38,737 nt of DNA. Source: Candidatus Rokuibacteriota bacterium (GTDB taxonomy: Bacteria; Methylomirabilota; Methylomirabilia; Rokubacteriales; CSP1-6). Positions 8,544-38,560 of this stretch are shown piece by piece (position 1 is the stretch's first letter; every line of letters begins with the position of its first letter). The notes beneath the pieces were generated by a model. It saw nothing but the letters and a program-made list of their open reading frames with translations. It was not told the origin of the DNA and searched no databases. Position numbers and translations under genes: made by a program. The stretch is taken from the NCBI GenBank assembly GCA_003220435.1, contig QHSL01000009.1, forward strand, positions 1 through 38,737. The letters are read 5' to 3'.

Positions 8544-8900
8544 CTGGATCAGGATGGTCTCACGCCCGTCCCCGAGGTGAAGAGGTTCGGCTACGGCAAG
8601 CCGCTCGCCGTGCCGCCGCTCGACGAGGCGTGGGCGTGGTGGCGCGCGGTTACCAGGGCCGCCGATCCGTACCTCGACAGCGTCGCCGGCGTCCGACTCA
8701 CGCGCCGCTGGAAGCGCGAGTGCTCACGGGAGACGCCGGGCACGAAGCTCCACCGCACGACCTACCACTACTGGTTTCACCTCGGCGAATCGCAGGGTGT
8801 GCGGCAGATGCTCGGACACACGAAGCTTCCGGACTTCGTCGGCGGCTTCGGGAAGAGCCAGTACCGGCCCGAAGCCGCCGACGCGGCTACAGGGTCTTGA
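8544..8900 (+). pseudogene. DinB-like protein remnant (C-terminal part)
   Basis: The frame from about 8544 reads LTPVPEVKRFGYGKPLAVPP, and then has a helix with HRTTYHYWFHLGESQGVRQM followed by LGHTKLPDFVG. The H-x3-WFHxGE...RQxLGH pattern is like the last helix of DinB/YfiT-type four-helix metal-binding proteins. Members are about 150-180 residues; here 107-118 remain. Similarity seems to continue upstream of the only plausible start (GTG 8577), and no ribosome site is seen, so this looks like a gene that lost its 5' end. It could still be a short expressed protein from GTG 8577. Its end overlaps the convergent peroxiredoxin gene by 14 bp. Confidence 0.45.
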
Positions 8901-9321
8901 CGACCTCGGCCGGCCACGCGCGGGGGTCGACGCGCTGGTGCCACTCCTTGATCTTCCCGTCGCGATCGATCACGACGCCGACGCGCTGTGCGCCCTTCTG
9001 CGGGTCGACGTTGGCGCCGTAGGCGGTGCCGATCGTCCGGTCGGTGTCGCAGATCAGAGGGAAGTTGAAGTGGTTCTTGTCGGCGAATTTCTTGTTGTCG
9101 GTCGGGGTGTCGAAGGACACGCCCACGATCACCGCGTTTTTGCCCTCGTAGTCGTGCTTCAGGTCGCGGAACCCGCAACCCTCGGCGGTTCAGCCGCCGG
9201 TGTCGGCCTTGGGGAAGAACCAGAGCACGATGGTCTTCCCCTTGAAGTCCGAAAGCTTCACGGTCTGGCCGTTGTGATCGCGGCCCACGAAGTCGGGCGC
9301 CTTGTCGCCAGGATTGAGCAT
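8887..9321 (-). CDS. Selenocysteine-containing peroxiredoxin (BCP/AhpC-TSA family), UGA = Sec44
   Basis: Read through the in-frame TGA at 9190-9192, this is a complete 144-residue peroxiredoxin: KAPDFVGRDHNGQTVKLSDF, then VLWFFPKADTGG, Sec44, TAEGCGFRD, VIVGVSFDTPTDNKKFADK and a normal end. In bacterioferritin-comigratory-type peroxiredoxins this position is the peroxidatic Cys (DTPGCTxEACGFRD), and the Cys five residues later (Cys49 here) is the resolving one. Sequence on both sides of the TGA is conserved and in one frame, which argues against decay. ATG 9321 follows GGAGGG at a good distance. A SECIS-like hairpin lies just after the UGA. It reduces peroxides using thioredoxin-type donors. 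It is 16 bp downstream of the MFS gene, probably co-transcribed. Confidence 0.88.
9162..9192 (-). promoter_or_regulatory. Putative bacterial SECIS element of the selenoperoxiredoxin
   Basis: The UGA is complement 9190-9192. Seventeen nt later an 8-bp stem GGUUGCGG/CCGCGACC (9173-9180 with 9162-9169) closes a 3-nt loop, GUU (9170-9172). Bacterial SECIS elements are hairpins inside the gene with a small apical loop that starts with G, about 16-37 nt after the UGA; this fits. The stem includes one G-U pair. Confidence 0.7.
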
Positions 9322-21887: not shown

Positions 21888-22640
21888 CTAGATGCCCCGG
21901 CGGAGGCCGCCGTCCACGTGGATGCGCTCGCCGGAGATGTAGCGCGCCTTGGGTGAGCAAAGGAACGCGACCAGGTTCGCCATATCACTGGGATCGCCGA
22001 AATAGCCGAGCGGGATGTTCCGCGCGAACTGCTCCCGGCTCTCCGGAGTAGGGTGCAGGCGCGTGTCGATCTGCTCGCTGTGGATTCGCCCGGGGGCCAG
22101 ACAGTTCACGGTGACGCCATGGCGGCCCACGTCGCGGGAGAGCCCCTTGGCCCACGCGTGGACGGCGGCCTTGGCCGGCCCGGCCGCGTTCGTGCCGGCC
22201 GGCTCCGACGTGCCGGTGATGTTGATGATCCGTCCCCATGTGCGCTCGATCATCCCGGGCAGGAGCGCCTGCGTGAGCTTGCGGACCGCGATGAAGTTGA
22301 TCGCGAACGACTCGTCCCACACGGTGTCGGGCGCGTCCATCGCCGTCGGGCGGGAGCCGCCGGCGTTGTTCACGAGGATATCCACGCGGCCGAGCCGCGC
22401 CAGGGCTTCGTCGCGCACGCGGGCGGCCGATCCACGGTCGGCCAGATCGATCGCCAGCGCGTACGGGCGCGGCCAGCCGGCGCCCTCGATCTCGTCCTGC
22501 AAGGTCTTCAAGAGCTCACCGCGCCGCGCGACGATCAGGGCCGACACGCCCTCGGCGGCAAGCACGCGCGCGATCCCTCGCCCGATCCCCACGCTGCATC
22601 CGGTCACGACGGCGGTGCGGCCGCGAAGCTCGAGGTCCAT
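21888..22640 (-). CDS. Short-chain dehydrogenase/reductase-like protein lacking the catalytic Tyr
   Basis: 250 residues. The cofactor motif TGCSVGIGRGIA and the NNAGG motif are intact, as are the active-site Asn region (ESFAINF) and the late PGRIHSEQ and GERIHVDGG. But in the usual S-x12-Y-x3-K segment the protein reads TSEPAGTNAAGPAKAAVHAW: the Lys is there, and the residue four before it is Ala, not Tyr. So it keeps the NAD(P)-binding fold but lacks the general acid of classical SDRs. It may use another residue or have another role. ATG 22640 overlaps the stop of the AhpD-like gene by one base (TGATG), so the two are coupled. Confidence 0.85.
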   Translation of the reverse strand: MDLELRGRTAVVTGCSVGIGRGIARVLAAEGVSALIVARRGELLKTLQDEIEGAGWPRPYALAIDLADRGSAARVRDEALARLGRVDILVNNAGGSRPTAMDAPDTVWDESFAINFIAVRKLTQALLPGMIERTWGRIINITGTSEPAGTNAAGPAKAAVHAWAKGLSRDVGRHGVTVNCLAPGRIHSEQIDTRLHPTPESREQFARNIPLGYFGDPSDMANLVAFLCSPKARYISGERIHVDGGLRRGI

Positions 22641-23041
22641 CAATCCCTCCGAAGGAACGTCTCGTCGGTTTCGACCTGGTAGCCGTCGGCCAGCCGGTTC
22701 GTCTCGTTCGCCATGCCCACCACGGCCATCAGCTCGCCCAGCATCGCGTCGGTCATGCCCTGCTTACGTGCGGACGCGGTGTGAGAGGCGGTGCAGTAGT
22801 CGCAGCCGTTGGTGGCGCTCACCGCCAGATAGACCATCTCCTTCGTGAGTGGGTCGAGCGCGCCCGGTGCCATCACCGACTTCAAGGTCTCCCAGGTGCG
22901 CCGGAGCGTCGGGGGATGGCTGGCGAGCGCCTTCCAGAAGTTGTTCACGGAGTCGATCTTCCGCGTGGCCATGATGTCGTCGTAGACCGCGCGCACCTCG
23001 GGGCTCGCCTGCGCGTACTCGATCAGCTTGACGGTCGCCAT
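22640..23041 (-). CDS. Carboxymuconolactone decarboxylase/AhpD-like protein with CxxC
   Basis: 133 residues of the AhpD-like all-helical fold. The redox motif is NGCDYCTASH, the classical C-x-x-C-x3-H of alkylhydroperoxidase D-like proteins, so a thiol peroxidase or disulfide reductase role is more likely than lactone decarboxylation. Other landmarks: ASPEVRAVYDDIMATRKI, LDPLTKEMVYLAVSATNG and GMTDAMLGELMAVVGMANETNR. It overlaps the SDR gene by one base. A full promoter TTGACC-17 nt-TAGCGT lies 7 nt before ATG 23041 with no ribosome site, so the mRNA is likely leaderless. Confidence 0.88.
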   Translation of the reverse strand: MATVKLIEYAQASPEVRAVYDDIMATRKIDSVNNFWKALASHPPTLRRTWETLKSVMAPGALDPLTKEMVYLAVSATNGCDYCTASHTASARKQGMTDAMLGELMAVVGMANETNRLADGYQVETDETFLRRD

Positions 23042-23048
23042 GCGAGAG

Positions 23049-23077
23049 ACGCTAGCCCGAGTGCTCAGCGTGGTCAA
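23049..23077 (-). promoter_or_regulatory. Consensus-like promoter of the AhpD-SDR operon
   Basis: On the minus strand TTGACC (23072-23077), exactly 17 nt, TAGCGT (23049-23054), then 7 nt to ATG 23041. Spacing fits a sigma-70-type promoter whose start site falls at or next to the start codon. Confidence 0.6.
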
Positions 23078-23154
23078 GGAATCGCGATCGGTGTAGTCTT
23101 CGGCGTGCACATCCACTTGCTCAACCGATCGGATCGAACAGGGGAGGAACGGGC

Positions 23155-24444
23155 ATGACGTCGTCGACATCGCAGAGCCGCCGTGACGTGCTGAAGGGAG
23201 CCGCGGCCGTCGCGGTCGCCGCCTCCACCGGCATCGCGACGTCCCGCCGGGCCCACGCCCAGGGCGGCCAGCCGCGCGCCCGCCTCGACGGTGTGCTCCG
23301 CCAGGCGGTCGACGCGAAGGAGGTGCCTGGCGTCGTCGCGATGGCGGCGAGCGACAAGGGCGTTCTCTACGAGGGCGCGTTCGGGTTGCGCGCGCTCGAT
23401 GGCAGCGCGGGCATGACCCTCGACACGGTGTTCCGCATCGCCTCGATGACCAAGGCGATCACGTCGGTCGCGGCGATGCAGCTCGTCGAGCAGGGCAAGC
23501 TCAAGCTCGAGGAGCCGGCGCCGAGCATCGATCCGGCGCTCGGCTCACCCCAGGTGCTCGAGGGCTTCGACGCCGCCGGCGCGCCCAAGCTCCGCCCGGC
23601 GAAGCGGCCGATCACCCTGCGTCACCTGCTGACCCACACCGCCGGGTTCAGCTACGACATCTGGAACGCGAATACCGGGCGCTACGCGAAGGCGACGAAC
23701 ATGCCGGCGCGCGCCACCGCCAAGGTGGCGTCCATTCGGACGCCGCTGGCGTTCGATCCGGGCGACAAGTGGGAGTACGGCGTCAACACCGACTGGGTCG
23801 GGCGCCTGGTCGAGGCGACCAGCGGGCAGACGCTCGACGCGTACTTCCGCGACAAGATCTTCACGCCGCTCGGCATGAAGGACAGCGGCTACGTCGTCTC
23901 GGCCGAGCAGCGGGCGCGCCAGGCCCGCGTTCACGTGCGCCAGGCCGACGGCTCACTCGTGCCGCAGCCGTACGAGACGGCGATGGTCAACCCCGAGTTC
24001 TGGTCGGGCGGCGGCCCGCTCTACTCGACAGCGCATGACTACATGACGTTCCTGCAGATGCTGCTGCACGGCGGCAGCTTCAACGGCACGCGCATCTTGA
24101 AGCCGGAGACGGTCGCGCTGATGGGCAAGAACCACACGGGCAACATCCCGTGCGGCGTCATGAAGGCCGAGAACCGGGCGCTCTCGAACGACGTCGACTT
24201 CTTCCCGGGCGCGGAGATCCGGTGGGGGCTCGGCTACATGCTCAACGTGCAGGCTGGACCGAACGGCCGGAGCGCGGGCACGGTGAGCTGGGGCGGGATC
24301 TTCAACACCTACTACTGGCTCGACGCGACGAAGCACGTGGCGGGCCTCATCATGACCCAGATCCTGCCGTTCGCCGATCCGAAGGCGGTGAGCCTCTACG
24401 GGAGAGTGGAGAACGGCGTCTACGAGTCGCTGAAAGCGATGTGA
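23155..24444 (+). CDS. Tat-exported serine hydrolase (class C beta-lactamase/esterase family)
   Basis: 429 residues. The N-terminus SRRDVLKGAAAVAVAAS is a twin-arginine signal, with likely cleavage after AHA. The catalytic Ser97 and Lys100 are in SMTK (FRIASMTKAITS); the Tyr motif is YGVN at 208-211; RHLLTHTAGFSYD and FTPLGMKDSGY are typical of the family; the third box is probably WGGIFNTYYW. Members include penicillin-binding-like esterases, D-aminopeptidases and true class C beta-lactamases; this layout is closest to the esterase VIII/EstB group, so beta-lactam resistance should not be assumed. GGGGAGGAA precedes ATG 23155. It is divergent from the AhpD-SDR pair and stands alone. Confidence 0.88.
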   Translation: MTSSTSQSRRDVLKGAAAVAVAASTGIATSRRAHAQGGQPRARLDGVLRQAVDAKEVPGVVAMAASDKGVLYEGAFGLRALDGSAGMTLDTVFRIASMTKAITSVAAMQLVEQGKLKLEEPAPSIDPALGSPQVLEGFDAAGAPKLRPAKRPITLRHLLTHTAGFSYDIWNANTGRYAKATNMPARATAKVASIRTPLAFDPGDKWEYGVNTDWVGRLVEATSGQTLDAYFRDKIFTPLGMKDSGYVVSAEQRARQARVHVRQADGSLVPQPYETAMVNPEFWSGGGPLYSTAHDYMTFLQMLLHGGSFNGTRILKPETVALMGKNHTGNIPCGVMKAENRALSNDVDFFPGAEIRWGLGYMLNVQAGPNGRSAGTVSWGGIFNTYYWLDATKHVAGLIMTQILPFADPKAVSLYGRVENGVYESLKAM

Positions 24445-25779: not shown

Positions 25780-26328
25780 ATGCCCAGAGTCGCCCCGATC
25801 ACCGGAAAGTCCGACGTGCCGGCCGAGCATCACGCCGTCGTCGATGGCGTGCTGAAGACGTTCGGGCAGGTGCGCGGACCGTTCAGCATGCTTCTGCACA
25901 GCCCGAAGCTCGCGGAGCGGCTGCTCCCACTGGTCATCTTCTTCCGGGACGAGAGCGCCGTTGACGCCAGGCTCCGCTCCGTCGCGATCCTGGCGGCCGT
26001 GCGCGAGCGCGAGGCAGCGTACGTGTGGGCGGCTCAGGTCGGGGCGGCGCGCCGCAACGGCGTGAGCGACGAGATCATCGACGTCCTCCGGGCGAAGGGC
26101 GACCCCGGCAAGCTGCCCGCGGAGGAGCGGGACATCGTGGTGTACGTGCGCCAGCTGATGCGCACGAACCGCGTCGACCAGGGAGCGTTCGATGCGCTCG
26201 CCAAGCGCCACGACCCGAAGTGGCTCGTCGAGCTGACGGCGGCCGCGAACTACTTCGCGCTCCTGTCGGGCGTCGTCAACGCGTTCGAGGTCGCGGCGCC
26301 GCCGGACGGAGACAAGCTGCCGGTGTAA
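25780..26328 (+). CDS. Carboxymuconolactone decarboxylase family protein, cysteine-free
   Basis: 182 residues. Helical CMD fold with FGQVRGPFSMLLHSPKLAER, DARLRSVAILAAVREREAAY and WLVELTAAANYFALLSGVVN. Where AhpD-type relatives have CxxC, this protein reads REAAYVWAAQ: no cysteine at all in the chain. So it is not a thiol peroxidase and is closer to the gamma-carboxymuconolactone-decarboxylase branch, in which a His or Glu pair may act (VWAAQ replaces WxxH). GGAAAGGAG precedes ATG 25780. Second gene after the EthD-like protein. The stop is TAA, and a GC-rich hairpin follows at 26392. Confidence 0.82.
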   Translation: MPRVAPITGKSDVPAEHHAVVDGVLKTFGQVRGPFSMLLHSPKLAERLLPLVIFFRDESAVDARLRSVAILAAVREREAAYVWAAQVGAARRNGVSDEIIDVLRAKGDPGKLPAEERDIVVYVRQLMRTNRVDQGAFDALAKRHDPKWLVELTAAANYFALLSGVVNAFEVAAPPDGDKLPV

Positions 26329-35644: not shown

Positions 35645-36297
35645 GCCGCGTCTTCCTGCTGTCGCCGGCGTACTGCGGGGGAGAGCGCGCCCGGCTCGTG
35701 CTCAGCGATCGCGCTGCCTTCGATCTCGCCCGGCGGGTTCGTGGCGCGGCGGGTGCGCCCATCGGTGAGGTCTTCTCGTTCATGAGCGGACTCTACTTCC
35801 GCGGCAAGCTGGCGTACGCGCGGGCGTTCGCGCGCCCACCCCAGGGCCGCGTGGGAATCTACGTCATCACGCCGACCGACGGGTTGCGGCCCGCCGACGA
35901 GACGGTCGATCTCGAGCGGCTCCGACGATTCGCCAGCGTCGACATCGCCGGCGACGATCCGCGCTACCGCGAGCCGCTCGATCGCGACGCGCGCCGGCTC
36001 GCCGAGGAGACCGGAACAGCCGGCGAGGTGATCCTGCTCGGCAGCATCGCGACGGGCAAATACGTGGAGCCGCTCCTGACGGCGCTCGGCGAACGGCTGC
36101 GGTTCCCGCTGGACTTCGTCGGCCGCGGCGACATGAGCCGCGGAGGCTTGCTCCTCCGATGCGCGCGGGCGGGAACCGAGCTGACCTACGTCGGCCTTCG
36201 CGATGCGGTCCGCCGCGGGCCCCGCCCGCCTCGACTGGCGCCGGTGTCCAACGAAGGTGGTCGCGGGACGAGGACTACGCCGGCTCGATCCCGATGA
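35641..36297 (+). CDS. Conserved protein of unknown function coupled to the PolX-like gene
   Basis: 218 residues. I do not recognise a named domain. It begins MSRVFLLSPAYCGGERARLV (GTG start at 35641, overlapping the PolX stop), then GEVFSFMSGLYFRGKLAYAR, RVGIYVITPTDGLRP, GEVILLGSIATGKYVEPL and RFPLDFVGRGDMSRGGLLL. The spacing of hydrophobic strands suggests an alpha/beta fold; the single Cys is in the N-terminal AYCGGERAR. It is coupled with a DNA-repair-like gene, which suggests a DNA-related role, but no motif supports a specific one. Its 3' end overlaps the convergent selenoprotein gene by 23 bp. Confidence 0.75.
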   Translation: MSRVFLLSPAYCGGERARLVLSDRAAFDLARRVRGAAGAPIGEVFSFMSGLYFRGKLAYARAFARPPQGRVGIYVITPTDGLRPADETVDLERLRRFASVDIAGDDPRYREPLDRDARRLAEETGTAGEVILLGSIATGKYVEPLLTALGERLRFPLDFVGRGDMSRGGLLLRCARAGTELTYVGLRDAVRRGPRPPRLAPVSNEGGRGTRTTPARSR

Positions 36298-36793
36298 TCT
36301 CGTTGAAGCGGCCGAAGCCGATGTAGAGCGTCGCGTGGGCAACCAGCTCGACGATCTCGGCCTCCGAGAAGTGCCGGCGCATCTCCGACCAGAGCGCGTC
36401 GTCGACCTTCCGGTGATCGACCGCGAGCTTCTCGGCGAACCGGATCGCGGCGCGCTCGCGCGGGCTCAGGAGGTCCGACGTCTCGTCGTCGATCGCCGCG
36501 ATCTTCGCTTCCGTCACTCCCGCATGCCGGGCCCCGGCATAGCGCACGGTGAGTCAGTAGCGACACGCGTTGAGCGCGGCGATCTTCAGCCGCACCAGCT
36601 CGCGGAGCGCCGGGTCGATCGTGCCCTCGCGCGCGAGCGCCCCGCGGAAGGCGGCCAGCGCTTTCACCACGACCGGGTTGCGGGCGTAGGTTCTCGTGCT
36701 CGCCGAGGTGCCGGACTGGCGCTCGGCCTCTTCGCACAGGTGCCGGATCTCCCCGTCGACCTCGTGAATGCCCAGCGGCTCCATCCTCGCCAT
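36275..36793 (-). CDS. Selenocysteine-containing AhpD/CMD-like protein, UGA = Sec80 (CxxU)
   Basis: Read through TGA at 36554-36556, one frame of 172 residues results: an N-terminal helix pair (MARMEPLGIHEVDGEIRHLC), KALAAFRGALAREGTIDPAL, then ELVRLKIAALNACRY, Sec80, LTVRYAGARHAGV, and AEIVELVAHATLYIGFGRFN. AhpD-like proteins have C-x-x-C here (ALNGCxYCxxxH); this has Cys77-Arg-Tyr-Sec80, with Sec at the peroxidatic second Cys. Protein similarity is seen on both sides in one frame. GGGAGGGAG precedes ATG 36793. A SECIS-like hairpin follows the UGA. It probably reduces peroxides or acts as a redox relay. It lies 19 bp after the lactonase-like gene. Confidence 0.88.
36521..36556 (-). promoter_or_regulatory. 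Putative bacterial SECIS element of the AhpD-like selenoprotein
   Basis: UGA is complement 36554-36556. Twenty nt later a loop GGC (36531-36533) is closed by a perfect 7-bp stem AUGCCGG/CCGGCAU, extended by CGC/GCG (36542-36544 with 36521-36523) with one bulged U (36541). The bulged U and a G-first loop recall the E. coli fdhF SECIS. Confidence 0.72.
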
Positions 36794-36812: not shown

Positions 36813-37898
36813 CTACGGAAGATCGATGATCTCGATCCAGTTCGGGTTCTTGCCCATCGGATACTCCTTGAGCCTGGTGAGTCTGCCGCTGGTCTGGTCG
36901 ATCGCGTAGCTGGACATGGCGTGGGAGAGCTGACCGACCGCCAGCAGGTAGCGGCCGGACGTGTCGATCGCGAAGCCGCGCGGCTGTTTCTCGGTCGGCA
37001 CGCTGCCGATCGGCGTCAGCGTGCCCTTCGCCGCGTCGACGGCGAAGCCGGCCAGCGTGCTCGACGTGCGCTCCGACGCGTAGAGGAACTTGCCGTCAGG
37101 CGTGATGTGCAGGTCGGCGGCCGACGGCTTGCCCTCGAAGCCGGGCGGCAGCGCGCTGACGGACTGCTTCTGCGTGAGGTCTCCGGTGGCGGCGTGATAG
37201 TCGAACACGTAGACCGCGCCGTCCAGCTCACCCACGACGTAGACGATCTTCCCGCCCGGGTGATAGACGAAATGACGAGGTCCGGCCTTGGGCTTCACCT
37301 CCGCCGCCGGCGACGTCGTCGGGGCCAGCCTGCCGGTCGCCGCGTCGAACGTGAACTGGTTGACGCGGTCGTTGCCGAGCGTGGGCACGAGCACGTGGCG
37401 GTTCGCCGCGTCGGCCATGATCGCGTGCGCGTTCGGATAGTTCGGCAGCACCTGGTGCGGCGGCTGCACGGTGCCGGGCGGCCCGATCGGGTTCACGGTG
37501 ACCTTGTGGCCGGGATACGAGGCGCCGAGGAGGAAGCGGCCCGTGCGGTCGGTGGCGATATAGGCCAGGCTGTCGGCGAGCGGACCGCTGGCGACGTGCG
37601 TGAGCTTGCCGCTCGTCGGGTCGATCGCGAAGCCGGCCGCGATCTTCGGCTCGCCGCGCGTCCCGACGTAGAGGAACCGGCGATCGGGGCTCAGCGACAT
37701 CGGTGTCGAGATGCCCGCCTTCTCGATGCCGGGGATCGGCACCTTCTCCACGAGCGTGAGATCACCGCGCTGCCGATCGAGCTGGAGGACGTAGACCTCG
37801 CTGCTCTCGGCGTTGCCGACGTACACGAACGTGGCGGCGCGCGCGGGCGACGCCATCAGCGCGCCCAGGACCACGAGAACCGCAACAAGCAAAGGCAT
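36813..37898 (-). CDS. Secreted lactonase-like beta-propeller (PF10282/YncE type)
   Basis: 361 residues. Signal peptide (LLVAVLVVLGALMASPARA, cleavage after ARA) followed by a seven-bladed propeller. Blades show as FVYVGNAESSEVYVLQLD, RFLYVGTRGEPKIAAGFAID, ANRHVLVPTLGNDRVNQFTF, GPRHFVYHPGGKIVYVVGE, GKFLYASERTSSTLAGFAVD and GRYLLAVGQLSHAMSSYAID. The family holds 6-phosphogluconolactonase-like enzymes and cell-surface propellers; export points to the latter or to an extracellular lactonase. GGGAGG precedes ATG 37898. It lies between the broken hydrolase (28 bp upstream) and the AhpD-like selenoprotein gene, likely one transcript. Confidence 0.88.
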   Translation of the reverse strand: MPLLVAVLVVLGALMASPARAATFVYVGNAESSEVYVLQLDRQRGDLTLVEKVPIPGIEKAGISTPMSLSPDRRFLYVGTRGEPKIAAGFAIDPTSGKLTHVASGPLADSLAYIATDRTGRFLLGASYPGHKVTVNPIGPPGTVQPPHQVLPNYPNAHAIMADAANRHVLVPTLGNDRVNQFTFDAATGRLAPTTSPAAEVKPKAGPRHFVYHPGGKIVYVVGELDGAVYVFDYHAATGDLTQKQSVSALPPGFEGKPSAADLHITPDGKFLYASERTSSTLAGFAVDAAKGTLTPIGSVPTEKQPRGFAIDTSGRYLLAVGQLSHAMSSYAIDQTSGRLTRLKEYPMGKNPNWIEIIDLP

Positions 37899-37926
37899 GA
37901 TGTCCTCCCTTCGAACATGTCGGCCC

Positions 37927-38558
37927 TCACGGCCGGCGCGCCGGGTCGTTCAGGTGCAGCGCCGGCGTCCACCGAAGGCCGAGCCTCATGACGTCGCCGA
38001 GCACGTCGTCGCCCGCCGGCACCACCCCCGCTCCATCCACGCCACCAGGTCGTCGAACGCCTGCTGGCGCATGGCGCCGTCGAAGCTGCAGTGCGCCGGC
38101 CAGCGCATCGCCCGCTGGACCAGCAGGTGCCCGCTCCCGGCGGCCTCGGCGCGACGGCGGTAGTCCTGCTGGAGGCGGAACGGCACCCGGAAGTCGGCCG
38201 TCTCGTGGATCGTCATCAGGGGCACGCGAATCTTGCCCTTCAGCTCCGCGAAGACCGGATTCGCGTCGCGCGAGCGTGCGCCGGCCGCGGGCGTGATCCG
38301 GCGCACTTCGCGATTGAGGGTCGCCGCGTCGACGCCGAGCCCCGGGTCGATGTCGTAGCGGATGTGTCGCGTGTCGGCGTGACGCGCGAATTCTTGTGCG
38401 CGCTGCGGCCCCGGATCGCGCGGGTTGAGGTTCATGAGGTAGCGCGGCTTCATGCCGTCGAGGCGAAGCGGGAGGTCGCCGCCCGCCAGGTGCTTCACGA
38501 CGATCAGCACGAGCGCCAGCAGCGCGAGCGCCCCGAGCGCGCCCGGCCCCCGTGGCAT
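37927..38558 (-). pseudogene. Truncated and frameshifted alpha/beta hydrolase
   Basis: ATG 38558 opens a membrane-anchor or signal segment (ALGALALLALVLIVVKHLAG) and then the end of a hydrolase: NPRDPGPQRAQEFARHAD, IRVPLMTIHETADFRVPF with a catalytic-type Asp, and a late RWPAHCSFDG with a possible catalytic His. No GxSxG nucleophile is present, and about half the normal length is missing. Near the end the frame breaks at a CCCCC run (38025-38029): the first frame stops at 37986, while another frame gives VVPAGDDVLGDVMRLGLRW and a longer end to 37927. One extra G on the coding strand would join them. It may be decay, or a sequencing slip on top of a truncation. Confidence 0.6.
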
Positions 38559-38560
38559 CG

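Follow-up and report, generated by a model that had tools for sequence, protein, structure and literature searches.

The window, the whole stretch of 38,737 nucleotides analysed here, carries at 36275–36793 on the minus strand an AhpD/CMD-like gene that is almost certainly a genuine selenocysteine-decoded selenoprotein gene of Rokubacteriales; from sequence comparison we put the probability of this reading at about 0.96. The gene starts with ATG at 36793, runs through 79 codons to a TGA at 36556–36554, and continues through 92 codons to a TAG at 36277–36275, giving 172 residues including the putative Sec80. The first-pass annotation placed the gene at the correct coordinates and did not name the strand; a plus-strand reading of the same interval was rejected, as its translation is nonsense. 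It had also described two AhpD-like halves in one frame joined by a TGA at the second Cys of a CxxC motif. The two halves do share a frame and together make one CMD-domain protein, and the TGA occupies the second position of the CRYU motif, within ALNACRY-U-LTVRYAG. The open frame after the TGA is weak evidence by itself: in a window this rich in GC, 16% of all TGAs precede at least 91 open codons. What raises this TGA above chance is that homology extends across it, that it is conserved, and that the hairpin behind it is conserved in both position and nucleotides.

The TGA is found at codon 80 in the window's own genome and in 17 further genomes of the same family (18/18 orthologues, 59–92% identity), and the protein sequence is conserved on both sides of it. 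Differences from close orthologues fall mostly at third codon positions, again on both sides. Nine of the loci matching the gene come from MAGs named Candidatus Rokuibacteriota, and among 95 genomes of the phylum, matches at E ≤ 1e-25 occur only within the gene's own family. More distant paralogues in these genomes (27–42% identity) likewise have one TGA each, in every examined case at this codon. In the Cys-containing homologues (L060 and L083–L086), the Sec codon is replaced by TGC, and a Novosphingobium plasmid protein with 40.5% identity has Cys at this position (CANC). Neither TAA nor TAG is ever found there. The first-pass annotation had named homologues ending at the same TGA as short proteins as grounds for dropping the claim; there are none among the full-length homologues, and all 18 orthologues run past the codon. 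One relative without the TGA (G013) keeps the lactonase–AhpD gene pair described below, with residues 14–102 of the AhpD-like protein missing in frame. At this locus (L087, G013:C55, ~653–888), the loss takes the CxxU motif and the SECIS element while the adjoining lactonase gene is intact, and it is either a real deletion or an assembly collapse.

The mRNA downstream of the UGA folds into CGC-U-AUGCCGG(GGC)CCGGCAU-GCG at 36544–36521 on the minus strand, with a 7-bp upper stem, a GGC loop, a bulged U at 36541 and a 3-bp lower stem. The loop starts 20 nt past the UGA, exactly as the first reading of the sequence had it, and the hairpin agrees with the published bacterial SECIS model quoted in PMC13188914. 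The 48-nt fold has an energy of -19.6 kcal/mol, which is no better than that of shuffled sequences (z = -0.58), and Rfam at gathering thresholds gave no match anywhere in the window. Conservation is more telling. Among the 18 orthologues, synonymous entropy along the gene is lowest across codons 85–90: Tyr85 is TAT in 18/18 whereas Tyr79 is TAC in 17/18, Gly87 is GGG in 18/18 whereas Gly92 appears in four codons, and a CGG in the same stretch is likewise kept in 18/18. We also scanned hairpin position in 23 non-redundant paralogues (<80% identity in the scanned stretch), counting stems of 6 bp or more whose loop has a G as its first or second base. Such a hairpin, its loop starting 17–21 nt after the UGA, occurs in 17 of the 23 and in 0 of 5 Cys forms; elsewhere in these genes the mean is 0.72 and the maximum 4. 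The stem sequences bear no relation to one another, as in GCCGCGCC(GGC)GGTGCGGC, CCGCTTC(GTC)GAAGCGG, TTGCATC(GGC)GATGCAA and GAGCCTTC(GGA)GAAGGCTC, and each is nonetheless self-complementary at the same distance from the UGA. With a single fixed register, covariation is modest (61% paired; partner shuffles give a mean of 50% and a maximum of 60%), because the paralogue loops lie at 18 or 20 nt, which makes the position scan the better test. The expectation that both the loop G and the bulged U would be conserved holds only in part: the loop G is widely kept, but the bulged U characterises the window gene's subfamily and its nearest relatives and does not extend to the paralogues in general. 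With its near-constant distance, its G-loop and its unrelated stems, the paralogue set offers an unusually clean comparative view of the bacterial SECIS.

The absence of SelB or SelC had been proposed as the observation that would overturn the selenoprotein reading. Both are present, and selA, selB and selC are clustered in the genome. On contig C138, a tRNA-Sec with anticodon TCA scores 69.8 bits (gathering threshold 47), selA scores 569 bits and selB 351 bits, all three within 5 kb. Within the family, selB is above the cut-off in 50 of 57 genomes. The fragmented MAGs G020 and G025 carry the TGA gene and show no selB at E ≤ 1e-60, which is most likely due to incomplete assembly. Given this machinery and the SECIS hairpin, SelB and Sec-tRNA-Sec would read the UGA at codon 80 by way of the hairpin.

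These observations bear directly on readings that dispense with selenocysteine. A nonsense mutation or sequencing error in an ordinary CxxC AhpD gene would look identical if the window's own sequence were taken alone, and stops followed by long open frames are frequent in the window, as the 16% figure illustrates. However, the orthologues of 17 other genomes (59–92% identity) have the same TGA between two conserved halves, the codons of the SECIS are frozen, and the site is never TAA or TAG. On this comparative evidence the conserved TGA already refutes a pseudogene or error, to which we give very little credence. If UGA were reassigned throughout the genome, to Trp or Gly for instance, the clear read-through here would be accounted for, but TGA is the stop of many ordinary, coding-like frames across the window, every in-frame TGA of this protein group lies at a single catalytic codon where relatives have Cys, and the genome has tRNA-Sec, SelA and SelB. 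Reassignment is thus already contradicted by the available evidence and is, for practical purposes, negligible.

The window holds another selenoprotein gene, as had been claimed in the argument that two such genes in under 40 kb make chance stops unlikely. This Bcp-type peroxiredoxin gene lies at 8887–9321 on the minus strand, with its TGA at 9192–9190 in the motif FPKADTGG-U, Sec at the peroxidatic position, and an AhpC-TSA score of 124.5 bits. It is followed, 17 nt past the TGA, by a 9-bp hairpin of its own, GGGTTGCGG(GTT)CCGCGACCT. A simple list of open reading frames gives only the second half of this peroxiredoxin. Elsewhere in the genome, at least five of 25 CMD matches are TGA-bearing, and a sixth (C32) was recovered by protein search; the further TGA-bearing AhpD-like paralogues are on contigs C108, C130, C82, C53 and C32 of G000, and the one on C53 has Ser-x-x-Sec (SAYU) in place of Cys-x-x-Sec. 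Several peroxiredoxin-like genes of the genome also bear a TGA. A peroxiredoxin-like candidate with three TGAs (G000:C112) was rejected as such: it is TlpA-like, with a single credible UxxC Sec and the other TGAs outside. This TlpA/thioredoxin-like gene (G000:C112:25452-26072, L131) has the Sec motif WATW-U-PTC. The window also encodes CMD-family proteins without Sec at 22640–23170 on the minus strand, with a CxxC motif (NGCDYC), and at 25780–26328 on the plus strand.

The AhpD-like protein belongs to the CMD/AhpD family by PF02627 (68.2 bits, cut-off 23) and TIGR00778 (33.7 against 27.8). Among AhpD-like proteins we place it with the peroxidase-related ones of the COG2128 type. It scores 55.8 bits with TIGR01926 (peroxidase-related enzyme), below the subfamily cut-off of 81.8. 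AlphaFold gives an all-helical AhpD-like model with a mean pLDDT of 93.9, and Foldseek against the PDB returns the AhpD-like structures 2prr, 6ohi (Bmp8 debrominase), PA0269 (7xw1) and 3c1l, the best matches 2prr, 6ohi and 7xw1 having TM scores of 0.70–0.86. The closest solved structures by sequence are those of PA0269 of Pseudomonas aeruginosa (2o4d, 2ijc and 7xw1; E 5.5e-16, 32–33% identity), which has Cys where the window protein has Sec and a shorter N-terminus. In PA0269, Glu36, Cys48, Tyr50, Cys51 and His55 form a proton relay, and weak H2O2 reduction has been measured (PMC3141380). Glu65, Cys77, Tyr79 and Sec80 of the window protein correspond to the first four of these, and E65, C77, Y79 and U/C80 are invariant in 23 relatives. 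The relay His, which in PA0269 stands four residues past the second Cys, is absent; its place is taken by Arg84, which is invariant in the same 23 relatives, and some paralogues have His there. The residue of Mycobacterium tuberculosis AhpD that corresponds to PA0269 His55 is His137. Because the relay His is replaced by an invariant Arg, peroxidase activity is not to be assumed.

AhpD-like selenoproteins with a redox U/C pair were already on record, as the earlier reading stated: the CxxU proteins AhpD-like 1 (COG2128/TIGR01926) and AhpD-like 2 (PF02627) were described by Zhang and Gladyshev (PMC1088965, 2005; PMC2398784, 2008), and AhpD-like CxxU selenoproteins are catalogued in reviews, PMC13188914 among them. 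The window protein resembles them in fold family, in having Sec at the second CxxC position and in the SECIS just after the UGA, but differs in falling below the TIGR01926 cut-off and in having Arg rather than His four residues after Sec. The best-matching named family is the NCBIfam NF053654 (GroundWater_YciW, a YciW-related (seleno)protein), which aligns over nearly the whole length and matches 23/23 aligned relatives. At 86.6 bits, the score is far below the equivalog cut-off of 310, so that on profile scores the window protein is a subfamily related to NF053654 but separate from it. Its closest Cys relative among plasmid records is a CMD protein of Novosphingobium sp. PP1Y (NC_015583.1; 40.5% identity over 97% of the length), which is an ordinary cysteine protein with CANC, unlike the CRYU of the window. 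By these comparisons the window gene is a predicted new, lineage-restricted addition to the known CxxU AhpD-like selenoproteins, since its scores against the named (seleno)protein families stay under their cut-offs and its matches at E ≤ 1e-25 are confined to its own family.

The kind of protein is thus familiar, and what the gene adds is a well-supported, apparently unnamed subfamily; the main point is that a soil Rokubacteria lineage is rich in selenoproteins, whose genes can be expected to be annotated as truncated at the UGA. Rokubacteriales belong to the phylum Methylomirabilota (PMC8780371). PMC13188914 cites Deng et al. 2026 for a MAG of this phylum in which 63 selenoprotein genes are predicted; the selenoprotein-rich state is already reported for the phylum, and the window gene fits such very large selenoproteomes. 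Literature searches on selenocysteine or selenoproteins in Rokubacteria turned up nothing specific.

As to function, the redox pair of the protein is Cys77/Sec80, and Glu65 and Tyr79 occupy positions of the AhpD proton relay. The protein more likely than not acts on peroxides or peroxiredoxins, as a selenol peroxidase or a peroxiredoxin reductant. The Sec80 selenolate would attack a peroxide or an oxidised peroxiredoxin partner, Cys77 would resolve Sec80 to a selenenylsulfide, and thioredoxin- or lipoyl-type reductants may then re-reduce it. For the identity of substrate and partner, a peroxide or peroxiredoxin is the best inference, although Arg84 leaves room for another reductive substrate. 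AhpD reduces AhpC in mycobacteria, and this is the model for a special case of the preferred explanation, in which the protein serves mainly as an adaptor that reduces the cell's own Sec-peroxiredoxins, the window's among them. The several TGA-bearing peroxiredoxin- and thioredoxin-type genes of the genome, one of them in the window, point this way, as do marine data with adjacent Prx-like and AhpD-like selenoprotein genes (PMC2398784). The window peroxiredoxin, however, lies ~27 kb off and does not share an operon with the AhpD-like gene, and we regard the adaptor role as a tentative proposal, somewhat short of even odds.

The protein may instead be a selenoprotein that is no peroxidase and carries out another reduction, for example of a protein disulfide, or a Bmp8-like reductive dehalogenation. 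Bmp8 debrominase (6ohi) ranks second among the fold matches (TM 0.86) and also matches in sequence, the relay His has become Arg84, and no fixed gene neighbour indicates peroxide. Against this, identity to Bmp8 is only ~20%, the fold is common to all AhpD-like proteins, and no dehalogenation genes are seen beside the AhpD-like gene, which leaves this alternative rather unlikely. More doubtful still is a Rokubacteriales-specific Sec AhpD-like subfamily that uses its Cys/Sec pair for a non-hydroperoxide reaction, with the relay His turned to Arg, in a lineage with multiplied Sec-AhpD paralogues; the orthologues on which this proposal is based come from one family of the phylum only.

Directly upstream of the AhpD-like gene, a 7-bladed beta-propeller lactonase-family protein is encoded at 36813–37898 on the minus strand (PF10282, 275 bits). 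The lactonase gene ends 19 nt before the AhpD-like gene, and the two are probably co-transcribed. The lactonase gene adjoins the AhpD-like gene in the own locus and in five others and is absent from the flanks of most; in L035, it lies downstream instead of upstream. A constant partnership was therefore rejected, given these few loci and the differing order. A BNR-repeat-like gene, named by reading of the sequence, is another recurrent neighbour. With this varying lactonase and BNR-like context, function is not fixed by the neighbourhood. In the window, ~650 bp at 37900–38560 separate the end of the BNR-like gene from the lactonase gene; this stretch is missing in L049, where both genes abut, and it looks like an insertion. 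In L021 (G020:C541, ~2019–2168), the lactonase gene apparently retains only a few dozen codons at either end, and the Sec-AhpD gene beside it is intact.
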